DNA of 49,183 nt from Bdellovibrio sp. (GTDB lineage: Bacteria > Bdellovibrionota > Bdellovibrionia > Bdellovibrionales > Bdellovibrionaceae): contig JACMQO010000112.1 in the NCBI GenBank assembly GCA_014376935.1, positions 1 through 49,183 of the forward strand. Direction: 5' to 3'. Made by a program: the position numbers and the translations under genes. Positions 39,986-46,152 of this stretch are shown here, piece by piece (the stretch's first letter is position 1; each line of letters begins with the position of its first letter). Below the pieces are notes generated by a model that was given only the letters and a program-made list of their open reading frames with translations, did no database searches and was not told the DNA's origin.

Positions 39986-40084
39986 CAGAAGACAGTATCG
40001 AAAACCGGATTCAGTATTCCTGAGGCCCTTCTAGCTTTCTAGTCTAAATGACTTGAAAATTGCAATTAGCAATTTTTAGGCATA

Positions 40085-40113
40085 TTGACATGTACCCCAA
40101 TTTAGGGTACAAT
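40085..40113 (+). promoter_or_regulatory. Promoter and operator of the toxin-antitoxin locus
   Basis: TTGACA (40085-40090), a 17-base spacer and TACAAT (40108-40113) make a near-consensus sigma-70 promoter. A perfect dyad, GTACCC (40092-40097) and GGGTAC (40105-40110), fills the spacer and runs into the -10 box. An antitoxin bound there would block polymerase, the usual autoregulation of such loci. Confidence 0.85.
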
Positions 40114-40131
40114 TGGGAAAGATGTTTGTTT

Positions 40132-40417
40132 GTGAATAAAGTTGATCTTTCCAAAGTTGAGAAGCAACTTAAACGGATTCCTCAAGAGATTGTCTTTCGC
40201 TTAATGAGATGGGTTCGAACTATTGAAGAGTTTGGTCTTAATGAATCTCGAAAAGTTAAAGGCTATCACGACGAACCATTAAAAGGTGTAATGGCAAGGG
40301 CAAAGATCCGTTAGACTTGGTATTAAGTGGCGAGCCATTTATACCTATTCTAAATTAGGTGAATTAAATATCGGAAAGATTGAAGAGGTAACAGCGCATG
40401 ACTACCGGAAAGAATAA
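40132..40417 (+). pseudogene. HigB/RelE-like toxin gene with a one-base frameshift
   Basis: The frame from the GTG at 40132 reads like a RelE/HigB toxin (VEKQLKRIPQEIVFRLMRWV, ESRKVKGYHDEPLKG) but stops at 40314. The rest of the family pattern, RSVRLGIKWRAIYTY and VTAHDYRKE, continues in the next frame to TAA at 40415-40417, overlapping the antitoxin by 20 bases. Removing one A near 40293 would restore GQRSVRL, the normal motif. The start could also be a TTG a few codons upstream. The toxin is either inactivated, or the base is a sequencing error. Confidence 0.85.
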
Positions 40418-40715
40418 AAAAAATAAATATGGTTTGAAAGAGCTTGAAAAAGAATTTGGTTCTTTGACGTTTGGTCGGCTTCTTGAATCTCATCGCCTTG
40501 CTGAAGAAATATCGCAAACAGAGATGGCTAATAAATTAAAAATGAGTCGTCAAAAATTAAATGATTTTGAACATGGGCGAAGATTCCCAAGTCTTGGTGC
40601 TGCGGCTGAAATGGCCGAGACGCTCGGTGAGCATGCGGCCACGTGGGTTTCTGTTGTTATCGAAGAAATGTTACGAGCGGATAATTTGGATTACAAAGTG
40701 ACATTAGCAGGTTGA
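40398..40715 (+). CDS. HigA-like antitoxin with XRE helix-turn-helix
   Basis: A 105-aa protein. A helix-turn-helix of the Xre/HigA type lies at about residues 25-80 (FGRLLESHRLAEEISQTEMANKLKMSRQKLNDFEHGRRFPSL). It overlaps the toxin end by 20 bases, the usual toxin-first order of HigBA loci. The antitoxin would neutralise the toxin and repress the shared promoter at 40085-40113. Its frame is intact although the toxin's is not. Confidence 0.85.
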   Translation: MTTGKNKKNKYGLKELEKEFGSLTFGRLLESHRLAEEISQTEMANKLKMSRQKLNDFEHGRRFPSLGAAAEMAETLGEHAATWVSVVIEEMLRADNLDYKVTLAG

Positions 40716-40805: not shown

Positions 40806-42338
40806 TTACCCTTGATGCAACGAAACCCCATTGATTCGTATGCCGATATCATCCCACTTGAACCCGTGTTTCTGTTCAAACCTTTCAATTTGCTCAAAGT
40901 AAGCCGACTTGTGTAAAGTCTTAAGTACGGCCGTTTGTTTTGTAAACTTAGCGAACGCGATCGCGTGCGGCATGCAGAAAGCCAATTTACTTTCTTCGGC
41001 GACCAGATCAACAACTTGTGTGGGTGCTACTTTCTGAAATACAATCCAATCTAAATCTTGATCACGCTCAGTTACAGTTTTCATTGCGTAGGTTCTGCGA
41101 AGAGCATTGCTTCGACTCAGTTCCCAACCGGTGTATTCAGAAATTATTTTCATAATGTCTTCATGATAGATAACGACGCCGTGATTCGGTTGTAGCCACT
41201 TTTCAATTTTTTCTGAAAGAAAGCCGTAAGAAAATGTTTTTTTCTTAGCGTCACGATAAAGATCAATTCGATTGATCAGTTCTTGCGTATGGGGCCGCCA
41301 AAGAGCGGTAATATTTATGATATCTCTGAACGAAAATTCTGTTTGATCTTTGAAATGCTCTTCGATTTTTTTTAATCCTAAAAACTCTGGGAAAAACTTG
41401 TCATAGTTCATAACCAAAGCATCGGGTGAAAAATCAAATTGAAATATTTTTTCAAAATCACCATTCTTAAAAGGACTTAATACGATATCAGAGTCATCTT
41501 GAATAGTATCATAGTCTATAACTTGTCCCATCGCTTTATGGGTATTCTGAATAACATCAATCAACGGCATTTTAAATGCCTGAATTTCGCCGTAAGATAA
41601 TGTGCGATTCACATCGCGACAAAAATCGACGAACTCTTGACCTCGCTCGTATTCGACATCGATATGAAAAAATGGCTTTTGGGTCAATAGCCGCTCTGGA
41701 AGCATTTCGTATTTTAATGGATCAACGACCGAGAATCCAAGGCCGTAAAAAGACATGCTGGCCGGCGAACTTCCGCGAGCTGTTCCTAAAATAAGATTTT
41801 TTCTTTTCGCAAAATCAGTGCATTTCTTAACGGCGCTGATAAATTCGCCGACGCCCGGGTGGCTATCTAACCACGTGTCGCGTTTTAAATAAGCGACGGC
41901 TGAATCACTGATCTCGTGATAACGACTGCGTAGACCGCTGATGACCTCTTCTTTTAAGCTATCCATATACAGATTCCTTTCCGTTTCGGTGAGTATTTCA
42001 CCTGTTTCAATTTTGTTTGAAACGGAAAGAAGATTCTGCACACGCTGACGACGATCCGCGAGGTTTTCAATTTCGTGTTCTATTTGTAAAAGTCGCTCTT
42101 GCAAGTGAGTCTTCAATTCAGAATCTGAAAAGCTAATAATAATCTTGATGTCATCAAGACTAAAACCCAACCCTTGCAAATCTCGAATGCGATTCATCCG
42201 TTCAAGCAATTTTTCGCTATAGAAACGATAATTGTTTTCACCACGGTTAGACGTTGGCAAAAGACCAATAGATTCGTAATAGCGCACTGTACGCGCTGAA
42301 ACCTGAGCCTTATCTGCAAACTGTCCAATCGAAAGCAT
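40806..42338 (-). CDS. MerR-type regulator fused to a degenerate DnaE polymerase core
   Basis: A 510-aa protein. Residues 1-70 are a MerR winged helix-turn-helix (QFADKAQVSARTVRYYESIGLLP, NYRFYS, LGFSLDDIKIII), then a coiled coil (75-110). Residues about 185-480 follow family C polymerase (DnaE) motifs in order: TARGSSPAS (187, for GRGS), HIDVEY (225-230, for PDIDIDF), KMPLI (256-260, for KMDFLGL), GDFEKIFQF (293), FRDIINITALWRPH (337-350), GVVIYHEDIM (387), LRRTYAMK (413) and MPHAIAFAKF (456). Catalytic Asp 1 is His225, Asp 2 (Asp227) is kept, and Asp 3 is Pro258, so it should not polymerise. PHP, OB and tau-binding parts are absent. The ATG has ggaagga ahead. Confidence 0.88.
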   Translation of the reverse strand: MLSIGQFADKAQVSARTVRYYESIGLLPTSNRGENNYRFYSEKLLERMNRIRDLQGLGFSLDDIKIIISFSDSELKTHLQERLLQIEHEIENLADRRQRVQNLLSVSNKIETGEILTETERNLYMDSLKEEVISGLRSRYHEISDSAVAYLKRDTWLDSHPGVGEFISAVKKCTDFAKRKNLILGTARGSSPASMSFYGLGFSVVDPLKYEMLPERLLTQKPFFHIDVEYERGQEFVDFCRDVNRTLSYGEIQAFKMPLIDVIQNTHKAMGQVIDYDTIQDDSDIVLSPFKNGDFEKIFQFDFSPDALVMNYDKFFPEFLGLKKIEEHFKDQTEFSFRDIINITALWRPHTQELINRIDLYRDAKKKTFSYGFLSEKIEKWLQPNHGVVIYHEDIMKIISEYTGWELSRSNALRRTYAMKTVTERDQDLDWIVFQKVAPTQVVDLVAEESKLAFCMPHAIAFAKFTKQTAVLKTLHKSAYFEQIERFEQKHGFKWDDIGIRINGVSLHQG

Positions 42339-42356
42339 AGTCGAATTCCTTCCCGT

Positions 42357-42598
42357 TTAGTTCACCATAGGGTTTGACGTAACGGCAAGGTCAACAGGGT
42401 GAATGTAAAATAATGAAGATTTATTCAAATTAAGAAGCGCCTTATTACGGTTTGGGGTGCCGACAAGAAGTTCGCCAATACCGTAACGACCTTGAACGCG
42501 GGCAAAGACAGGTCCAATCGCTTCGTCACATGTTTTCGAATCACGCGCATGATCCATGATCGTGTGAACAGTGCCGCCGCTGACTTCGAAACATCAAC
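42357..42598 (-). pseudogene. Unrecognised gene fragment upstream of the MerR-DnaE gene
   Basis: On the minus strand the frame reads CFEVSGGTVHTIMDHARDSKTCDEA, continuing IGPVFARVQGRYGIGELLV and GTPNRNKALL to a stop at 42357. It looks like protein but has no start codon with a site, and further upstream another frame reads KCHCGAVRGVAVDV, as if one base were lost. Its last residues coincide with the MerR-type promoter, so the present DNA is probably regulatory and the fragment old debris. The remaining 42600-42770 shows no gene. Confidence 0.3.
42364..42394 (-). promoter_or_regulatory. MerR-type promoter with dyad operator
   Basis: On the minus strand, TTGACC (42394-42389), a 19-base spacer and TATGGT (42369-42364) precede the MerR-DnaE start by about 25 bases. 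TTGAC and GTCAA (42374-42378 and 42390-42394) form a dyad centred in the spacer. A long 18-20 base spacer with a centred dyad is the hallmark of promoters switched by MerR proteins. Confidence 0.7.
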
Positions 42599-44310: not shown

Positions 44311-45177
44311 CTATCCCTTCAAAAGTAAATTTAGCATTGGATGCCGTTTTCCCTTTTGGCGGTACACCAAAAAGTAGCTCTGCTTAATTTTTTTAAATTC
44401 ATGAACTATGTGCAGCTCGCCTGCTTCAAGCTCTCGTCGGATGCCAATCTTAGGAATTGCGATTAAACAATCTGTTTCAAGTGCGAGCAGTCGCAAAAAT
44501 GCGATGTCGTCGATGAAACCTCGAATATACGGGATCTTTACCTCAGCTGAAACAAAATCCAAAAGTGCTGAAGTAATCGGACTGCTTTGCGCGGGTAGAT
44601 AAAGTCCCTTTGAAAGAAACGCAGGTAAAGTGTCAGAATCTACTTTTTTTGGCCTAATTCTACTCACTAGGCAGACCGCCTCTACGGCAATTTCAGTCTG
44701 CGTAAGTGGTTCCGCTGCCGAAGAAGGAATCGGAACATCAGACAGTACGGCGTCAAGTTTATAATTCACCAGTCGGTCTATCAAAACTGCGGCATCCCCA
44801 ACTTCAAGAGATAACTCCGTTTTGGAATCAGAAAGTACATTGCTAAGTATTTTTAACTGTAGATTTTTTGAGAGTCCTCCAAGGGCACCGACACGGAAAC
44901 TCGACTTCATCTTTCCCGACCTAAAATACTGAAGCAGATCATTTCCTTGGCGAAAAATTTCTTCTGCTTGTGCAAGAGTCACCTGTCCGGCTTCGGTCAA
45001 CTTGAAGCCTCTTGGTCCACGCTCCATTAGCTTCTCGCCAAGATGGTCTTCCAGTTTTGAAACTTGAAGACTGACAGCTGACTGCGCGATTCTCAGTTTG
45101 AGTGCGGCTTTTGAGAAACCACCTTCTTTACAGACGATCCAAAAATAGTACAGATGATGATAATTGAGCCATTCCAT
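44311..45177 (-). CDS. LysR-family regulator, NhaR-like
   Basis: A 288-aa LysR-type regulator. Residues 1-60 hold the helix-turn-helix in a form typical of NhaR (MEWLNYHHLYYFWIVCKEG, then AALKLRIAQSAVSLQVSKLE), followed by the linker helix and an effector domain. I chose the ATG at 45177; an upstream in-frame start (45186) has no advantage. It is divergent, 96 bases away, from the gene cluster leading to sbtA/sbtB and is the likely regulator. NhaR in E. coli senses Na+, which would suit a Na+-coupled bicarbonate carrier; that link is inference. Confidence 0.85.
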   Translation of the reverse strand: MEWLNYHHLYYFWIVCKEGGFSKAALKLRIAQSAVSLQVSKLEDHLGEKLMERGPRGFKLTEAGQVTLAQAEEIFRQGNDLLQYFRSGKMKSSFRVGALGGLSKNLQLKILSNVLSDSKTELSLEVGDAAVLIDRLVNYKLDAVLSDVPIPSSAAEPLTQTEIAVEAVCLVSRIRPKKVDSDTLPAFLSKGLYLPAQSSPITSALLDFVSAEVKIPYIRGFIDDIAFLRLLALETDCLIAIPKIGIRRELEAGELHIVHEFKKIKQSYFLVYRQKGKRHPMLNLLLKG

Positions 45178-45179
45178 AG

Positions 45180-45202
45180 ATCTCAATATCTAAAATAGAG
45201 AT
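45180..45202. promoter_or_regulatory. Possible LysR operator
   Basis: ATCTC (45180-45184) and GAGAT (45198-45202) form an inverted repeat next to the LysR start, in the spacer shared with the inorganic-carbon cluster. The 13-base spacing is close to that usual for LysR sites. Confidence 0.35.
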
Positions 45203-45273: not shown

Positions 45274-46152
45274 GTGCAAAGCGACTCAATAGCAAATCCA
45301 CACGAAAAAATACATCCCTTCGCTGGCGAAACTGTCCTTTTTGCGACGAAGCATCAGAAGGAAGAAATCATCATTCCATTGCTGCGTGAATTGGGTATGG
45401 TTTGCGTCAAAGCAGAAGTCGATACCGACCAGTTCGGAACCTTCACAGGTGAAATTGAACGGACGGGATCAGTTCGAGAGACCCTCCGAAAGAAAATTAA
45501 AGCGGCATCTCTGAAATATCCAGATGGTCGTTTCATTTTGGCCAGTGAGGGTAGTTTTGGACCGCATCCTATTATTGGCTTCATGCAAATCGATCTAGAA
45601 TCACTATTACTTTGGGATCGAAAGTTGAAATTTGAAATTTACGCAGAGTTCTTGGATACAAATCCTGTTCACGGCGAACAAACTTTGGGGCCGCGAGATG
45701 ATTTCCGTACTGCGCTGAAAAATCTTGGTTTTCCGAACCATGGAGTTATTGTTCATCCCGAGAACTCCGTAATTCCTATTTTTAAAGGTCTTCACCGCGA
45801 ACACGACGTTGCGCAGGCAATGATTGATTCCTTCTGCGTTTCAACTAATGGACGTGTCGTCGTCGCAAATGATCTTCGTGCTTGCCACAATCCAACACGT
45901 CAGGCCGCCATCCTCGAGGCAGGTAAAGTGCTTTTAGAAAAGCTGAAGTCATTCTGTCCGTCGTGCTCTTATCCAGGATATGCAATCACTAAAAGTATAC
46001 CTGGTCTCCCATGTTCGGACTGCGGAGAAGTAAGTCAGATCGCAAAGACAGTCTTATTTGAATGCGTCAGCTGTAAATTTTCGGAAGAAAAGAAAAGACC
46101 TGATGGCAAAAAATCCATTGAACCTTCTGAATGTGAATTTTGTAACCCCTAA
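45274..46152 (+). CDS. DUF6671-like protein with zinc-ribbon C-terminus
   Basis: A 292-aa soluble protein. The first 220 residues contain a GETVLFATKHQKE start, GRFILASEGSFGPHP (about residue 90) and CHNPTRQAAI, which I associate from memory with DUF6671. The C-terminal 70 residues have two cysteine pairs and more (CPSC, CSDCG, CVSC, CEFC), that is zinc-ribbon motifs. It starts at a GTG with agaggt ahead. The sbtA ATG follows its stop with no gap. The role is unknown; being first in the sbtA operon suggests a partner in bicarbonate uptake or its control. Confidence 0.7.
   Translation: MQSDSIANPHEKIHPFAGETVLFATKHQKEEIIIPLLRELGMVCVKAEVDTDQFGTFTGEIERTGSVRETLRKKIKAASLKYPDGRFILASEGSFGPHPIIGFMQIDLESLLLWDRKLKFEIYAEFLDTNPVHGEQTLGPRDDFRTALKNLGFPNHGVIVHPENSVIPIFKGLHREHDVAQAMIDSFCVSTNGRVVVANDLRACHNPTRQAAILEAGKVLLEKLKSFCPSCSYPGYAITKSIPGLPCSDCGEVSQIAKTVLFECVSCKFSEEKKRPDGKKSIEPSECEFCNP

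Follow-up and report, generated by a model that had tools for sequence, protein, structure and literature searches.

TipA-class regulators have been described as minimal, autoregulated systems of multidrug resistance; they bind antibiotics and sequester them (PMC7762955, PMC6078987). MerR promoters are known for a strong palindrome within a spacer of 19-20 bp (PMC1526738). In family C DNA polymerases the catalytic aspartates, D401, D403 and D555 in E. coli DnaE, are absolutely conserved, as recorded in a census of ~2000 genomes, and D405 is a further conserved aspartate of DnaE that is separate from these three (PMC3919608). Proteins that have lost such activities are known from ImuB and ImuA, which are inactive polymerase and RecA homologues (PMC3919608). 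Here we describe a Bdellovibrio gene in which a MerR DNA-binding domain with its dimer helix (residues 1-114) is fused to DnaE palm and fingers (residues ~120-494). The window, i.e., the whole stretch of DNA that was analysed, comprises 49,183 nucleotides and carries the gene with the following parts:

40806..42338, (-) strand: MerR-DnaE fusion gene, 510 aa, ATG at 42338 (ORF list, Pfam, homologues)
42129..42338, (-) strand: winged-helix DNA-binding domain of MerR, residues 1-70 (Pfam MerR_1 and VIA-align)
42003..42125, (-) strand: long predicted dimerisation helix of MerR type, residues 72-112 (AlphaFold2 helix and PF09278)
40857..41981, (-) strand: DnaE palm and fingers, catalytically dead and thumb-less, residues 120-494 (VIA-align, hhalign)

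Architecture of the fusion and state of its active site

Pfam placed MerR_1 (PF13411) at residues 3-68 (E 1.3e-17, above the curated cut-off); the N-terminus also matched PF00376 (1.6e-15), and PF09278 was found at residues 45-102 (E 1.1e-5). For the remainder of the protein, DNA_pol3_alpha was recovered at residues 128-260 (8.7e-9) and DNA_pol3_finger at residues 336-425 (3.6e-15), both above their curated cut-offs. NCBIfam models of Pol III alpha matched at 8.9e-28, and a phmmer search of the PDB recovered the Pol III alpha of E. coli at ~2e-11. A homologue with only 26% identity (P0007) gave independent Pfam matches to MerR_1, DNA_pol3_alpha and DNA_pol3_finger. Comparison of a profile of 17 fusions with a profile of 10 DnaE proteins in hhalign yielded a probability of 99.9 and an E-value of 5e-34. 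The AlphaFold2 model (pLDDT 84.8, pTM 0.74) had Pol III alpha as its top Foldseek matches (4e-12). Using VIA-align, model residues 119-495 superimposed on residues 284-800 of E. coli Pol III alpha (2hnh) with a Z-score of 31.1 over 345 residues and an rmsd of 3.4 A, and residues 2-114 matched the MerR proteins CadR, SoxR and BmrR with Z ~12 (CadR 12.6). In the model, a single long helix (72-112) follows the winged helix. The fusion and its fold are hence established computationally. The first-pass annotation had read the 510-aa gene as a MerR winged helix followed by a DnaE segment, which Pfam, profile-profile comparison and AlphaFold/VIA-align bear out; the structure prediction and Foldseek search that it proposed as a check recovered palm and fingers, with Pol III alpha as the best match.

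The DnaE-derived part is strongly reduced. The protein starts with MerR instead of PHP and its C-terminal end lies just past the fingers; it therefore lacks the beta-binding, OB and tau-binding regions. Since only ~31 residues separate the equivalents of D405 and D555, compared to 150 in E. coli, the thumb has been lost as well. The annotation had already listed PHP, OB and tau-binding parts as missing; thumb, which it did not mention, and beta-binding region have to be added. Three codons describe the former active site:

41664..41666, (-) strand: codon of H225, equivalent of catalytic D403 (H in 11/17 members, W in 6/17, D in 0/17)
41658..41660, (-) strand: codon of D227, equivalent of the non-catalytic D405, invariant (alignments and PMC3919608)
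41565..41567, (-) strand: codon of P258, most likely the equivalent of catalytic D555 (P in 17/17 members; in the model, a strand at 251-257 precedes the helix 258-270)

E. coli D401, D403 and D405 align without gaps to F223, H225 and D227, and HMMER, hhalign and the MAFFT merge all agree on this. The position of D401, F223 in the window's protein, is an aspartate in 3/17 members. The AFKxP(L/F)(L/I)D motif of the fusions forms a strand (251-257) that leads into a helix, like LVKFDFLG in DnaE; judged from this motif and the predicted secondary structure, P258 most likely corresponds to D555. We word this equivalence with caution because automatic sequence alignments set the short stretch around P258 in another register. 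Read from the sequence, all three catalytic aspartates are lost, and whichever register P258 takes, the fusion should be unable to hold the two catalytic metals. The earlier count of two replaced aspartates out of three stands for H225 (D403) and, most likely, P258 (D555). It fails for D227, which had been named as the only remaining metal ligand and is the non-catalytic D405 in all three alignments, so that the loss extends to all three. Loss of catalytic residues is thus a computational result as well, and we regard architecture and dead active site, taken together, as practically certain.

Distribution, conservation and genomic surroundings

The fusion was found in 15/66 genomes of the host family, 16/141 of the order and 22/369 of the phylum. 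These counts refer to 369 Bdellovibrionota genomes; an additional contig scan reached close relatives only, and the named genome contigs with a full fusion are from Bdellovibrio and Bdellovibrionales MAGs. All fusions have 495-520 aa, the same architecture and a single copy per genome, and their carriers include single-contig chromosomes. The search for the same MerR plus DnaE-palm architecture in other genomes, suggested in the first-pass annotation, was therefore positive, and this recurrence supports its view that DnaE palm and fingers stand where the effector domain of a MerR protein normally sits. The fusion tree splits into two subfamilies. In the one that includes the window's fusion, members from genera g1 and g6 and from families f10, f12 and f20 are intermingled, and g6 is represented in both subfamilies; this pattern suggests horizontal transfer. 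Such a patchy, taxonomy-discordant spread is as expected for accessory resistance or defence genes. Viral contigs contained no relative of the fusion in single-protein or family-profile searches, and among phage and plasmid records there was none with one place covering 80% of the protein. We rejected an origin from a mobile element or phage, the annotated phage and plasmid matches being ordinary DnaE genes. In one genome (G155, locus L049) a stop disrupts the fusion gene, so that its MerR and DnaE-like portions form separate pieces of the frame.

Conservation is likewise established computationally. R188 (E. coli R362; 17/17) and G189 are invariant in the family, and E393, D394, H458 (H760), K467, A470, W495 and G499 are further conserved residues. 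D394, K467, W495 and G499 are not invariants of DnaE, an argument for a new conserved function. Of the basic residues in the active site of DnaE, only some are retained; equivalents of R709 and R710 are kept in 12/17 and 10/17 fusions. The DnaE-like part is under purifying selection, with dN/dS values of 0.06-0.12 in close pairs with unsaturated dS, the only pairs used.

An all-against-all comparison of the 22 neighbourhoods revealed no gene conserved across distant members and no resistance gene that consistently adjoins the fusion. A DEAD-box helicase gene adjoins three fusions in differing orientations; we took this as coincidence and rejected it as a partner. PADLOC reported only mad1, matched via the MerR DNA-binding part, and no defence-system membership; a SIR2 match of 0.006 in one distant member was taken as chance. 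In the window, a toxin-antitoxin-like pair (40060-40715, helix-turn-helix antitoxin at 40398-40715) is oriented convergently to the fusion gene. This pair also adjoins the fusion in G003 and lies ~3 kb off in G302, and the window's toxin ORF may be broken since it has 84 aa compared to 114 aa in the G003 homologue. Further along, a gene for a DUF6671 protein (45274-46152; 1.4e-44) adjoins a divergent LysR gene (44311-45186).

Promoter, operator and sister genes

Upstream of the ATG we identified the following elements:

42374..42394, (-) strand: predicted operator dyad TTGACCTTGCCGTTACGTCAA, the only match at <=3 mismatches in the window's genome
42364..42394, (-) strand: MerR-type promoter with -35 TTGACC, 19-bp spacer and -10 TATGGT (hexamer-pair scoring)
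42347..42354, (-) strand: ribosome-binding-site-like GGGAAGGA, preceding the ATG (seen in the upstream sequence)

The dyad spans the -35 hexamer and most of the 19-bp spacer, with the arms TTGAC...GTCAA. A 19-bp spacer occurred in the best-scoring hexamer pair of 17/21 members compared to 23/200 neighbouring genes (11.5%), the former count overstating independence since the members are related. Allowing up to 3 mismatches, the operator was found beside the fusion in 7/7 tested carriers, five of them without any other match and two with one weaker match, and was absent from 5/5 non-carriers of the same genus. The second subfamily has a motif of its own at its own gene, of the type CTGCCC-19-TATATT; one additional weak site was present in each of two carriers, and the motif was absent from 5/5 non-carriers. 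Weak second copies of the operator-like motif of this subfamily (B), with 3 mismatches, were seen at C1:3197021 in G071 (L075) and at C1:3009065 in G073 (L076). The L075 motif is probably due to chance because it lies inside a membrane-protein gene. Promoter form and operator uniqueness are established by computation, the latter within the limit of 3 mismatches; more diverged operators, and hence a wider regulon, lie beyond the reach of this search. Since the operator is nearly unique and located at the fusion's own gene, and the neighbours are not conserved, the simplest reading of the sequence is that the main or only target of the fusion would be its own gene. We consider such self-regulation quite probable.

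In one carrier (G063), the second operator site precedes a further MerR gene (L074:1542-2627, (+) strand). The C-terminal part of this gene product is a Lon substrate-binding domain (PF02190, 3.2e-24), and a MerR-type dyad, TTGACCTTTACGTTAGGTCAA, is found immediately upstream of the gene. A third set of MerR genes (L012:1489-2484, L013, L014, L015, L110, L112 and L114:4012-4986) encodes proteins of ~330 aa with the same cassette and linker. Their C-terminal domain matched MurC, MurT and MurE in Foldseek, using a low-confidence model (pLDDT 61), and its sequence gave chance matches only when compared to the PDB. Dyads of the TTGACCTT type were present immediately upstream of the third-set genes that we looked at, and in several Bdellovibrio genomes a third-set gene is located ~12 kb into the chromosome record. 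Together, the Lon and Mur-like sisters suggest that parts of several housekeeping enzymes have been attached to one MerR cassette. MerR proteins of ~213-222 aa whose C-terminal domain is unassigned are encoded at L107:570-1235 and L108:544-1182, with the similar upstream dyad TTGACCTTCACG...CGTGAA.

Candidate functions and comparison with known systems

We favour the reading that the fusion is an autoregulated, TipA-like switch in which a dead mimic of the target would serve as sensor, possibly sensing and also sequestering an inhibitor directed against DnaE, and we give it a probability of roughly 0.35. This reading is preferred because the protein has the layout of the TipA class and its sensor derives from an antibiotic target. 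We infer the following course of events. Dimers of the fusion would sit on the dyad inside the over-long 19-bp spacer of their own promoter; binding of a ligand in the palm-fingers cleft would distort the promoter DNA, and the promoter would fire. The output of the switch would be the fusion protein itself, since its own promoter is almost the only operator in the genome and a conserved partner gene is lacking. The newly made protein might then mop up the ligand as a decoy, in the way that antibiotics are captured by TipA and AlbA. As class of ligand, agents against the active site of the real DnaE would be likeliest, either polymerase inhibitors among natural products or inhibitory proteins. 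One such natural product is nargenicin, which binds the fingers and active site of DnaE only together with DNA and contacts Gln638, Arg667 and His787 in the M. tuberculosis enzyme (PMC8922275). By our own mapping of M. tuberculosis to E. coli numbers, His787 corresponds to the family-invariant H458, and the equivalents of Gln638 and Arg667 are not conserved across the fusions. As only the histidine contact is invariant, nargenicin serves here as an example and not as a prediction. Against a nargenicin-like ligand speaks that DNA is needed for its binding, yet a module without thumb may be unable to bind DNA.

The first-pass annotation had proposed dNTPs or primer-template ends as ligand, and a palm-fingers module that binds dNTPs or 3' ends could report replication state or dNTP supply, e.g., from digested prey. 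The retained palm/fingers fold, the invariant R188 (R362) and G189, and the R709/R710 equivalents in most members would fit such a sensor. The catalytic metal ligands, however, are gone in all members together with the thumb, the arginine pair is not universal, and the distribution is patchy. Furthermore, a nucleotide sensor should control other genes, but the operator was found essentially only at the fusion's own gene. Because metal site and thumb are lost and the operator was found at no nucleotide gene, we favour this sensor less and regard it as unlikely; with the metal-holding residues and the thumb gone and only some basic residues kept, the proposed ligands are not supported. The single operator at the self-promoter and the Lon- and Mur-like sisters speak for a target-mimic switch more than for a regulator of the nucleotide pool. 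Equally unlikely in our estimate is an integrated decoy, in which the DnaE-like part would serve as bait for a replicase-attacking protein from a phage or rival, and its binding would induce a response. A single, patchy and horizontally moving gene would suit this role, and the Lon- and Mur-derived sister parts fit a series of baits, but there is no conserved effector gene nearby and the sole PADLOC hit, mad1, stems from the MerR DNA-binding part.

A dead polymerase module might, in principle, act in a dominant-negative manner and brake replication by competing with DnaE at primed DNA or inside the replisome. We consider this highly improbable: the module has neither thumb nor PHP, beta-binding, OB or tau-binding parts, and the MerR half and a MerR-type promoter are conserved alongside. 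A chance fusion, decaying pseudogene or assembly artefact would account for the one stop-broken member (G155), but not for one architecture in 22 genomes, single-contig chromosomes included, for dN/dS values of 0.06-0.12 or for the new invariant residues P258, D394, K467, W495 and G499. Recurrence, selection and new invariants refute it as a general explanation, and its residual probability is negligible.

Returning to the TipA-like switch, it is conceivable, albeit somewhat doubtful, that Bdellovibrionota possess a modular class of self-controlled MerR proteins in which one conserved DNA-binding cassette is coupled to dead or partial copies of various essential enzymes (DnaE palm/fingers, Lon substrate-binding domain, Mur-ligase-like domain), each of which would sense and sequester agents against the real enzyme. 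If true, this class would be a bacterial counterpart of integrated-decoy immune receptors. The DnaE, Lon and Mur-like cases suggest that pieces of housekeeping enzymes have been recruited as sensors. Should DnaE inhibitors indeed be sensed, the fusion would represent a new type of resistance gene and a ready biosensor for replication-targeting antibiotics.

Like the TipA class (TipAL, SkgA, Mta, AlbA), the fusion combines a MerR N-terminus with a C-terminal sensor domain. Unlike in this class, the sensor is a DnaE-derived pseudo-polymerase and not the TipAS fold, and TipAS had no Pfam match in the fusion at E up to 1. BmrR/EcmrR, CadR and CueR share the winged helix, the dimer helix and the promoter form with 19-bp spacer; in the fusion, however, a DnaE effector domain of ~390 residues replaces the GyrI-like or metal-binding domain, and there is no adjacent conserved pump gene. 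With DnaE it has in common the palm/fingers fold, the motif order, the RG loop (R362-G363) and equivalents of E688 and H760, but it lacks D401, D403, D555, PHP, thumb, beta-binding, OB and tau parts and is fused to MerR. It resembles ImuB and ImuA as a catalytically inactive relative of replication or repair enzymes that has been given a new role, although those proteins are mutasome parts derived from the Y family and RecA and not transcription regulators. The literature that we searched contained no paper joining MerR with DnaE, in line with the initial remark that no such regulator had been described. Judged by this literature, no transcription regulator whose sensor stems from a replicative DNA polymerase appears to have been known before, nor any dead polymerase of family C.
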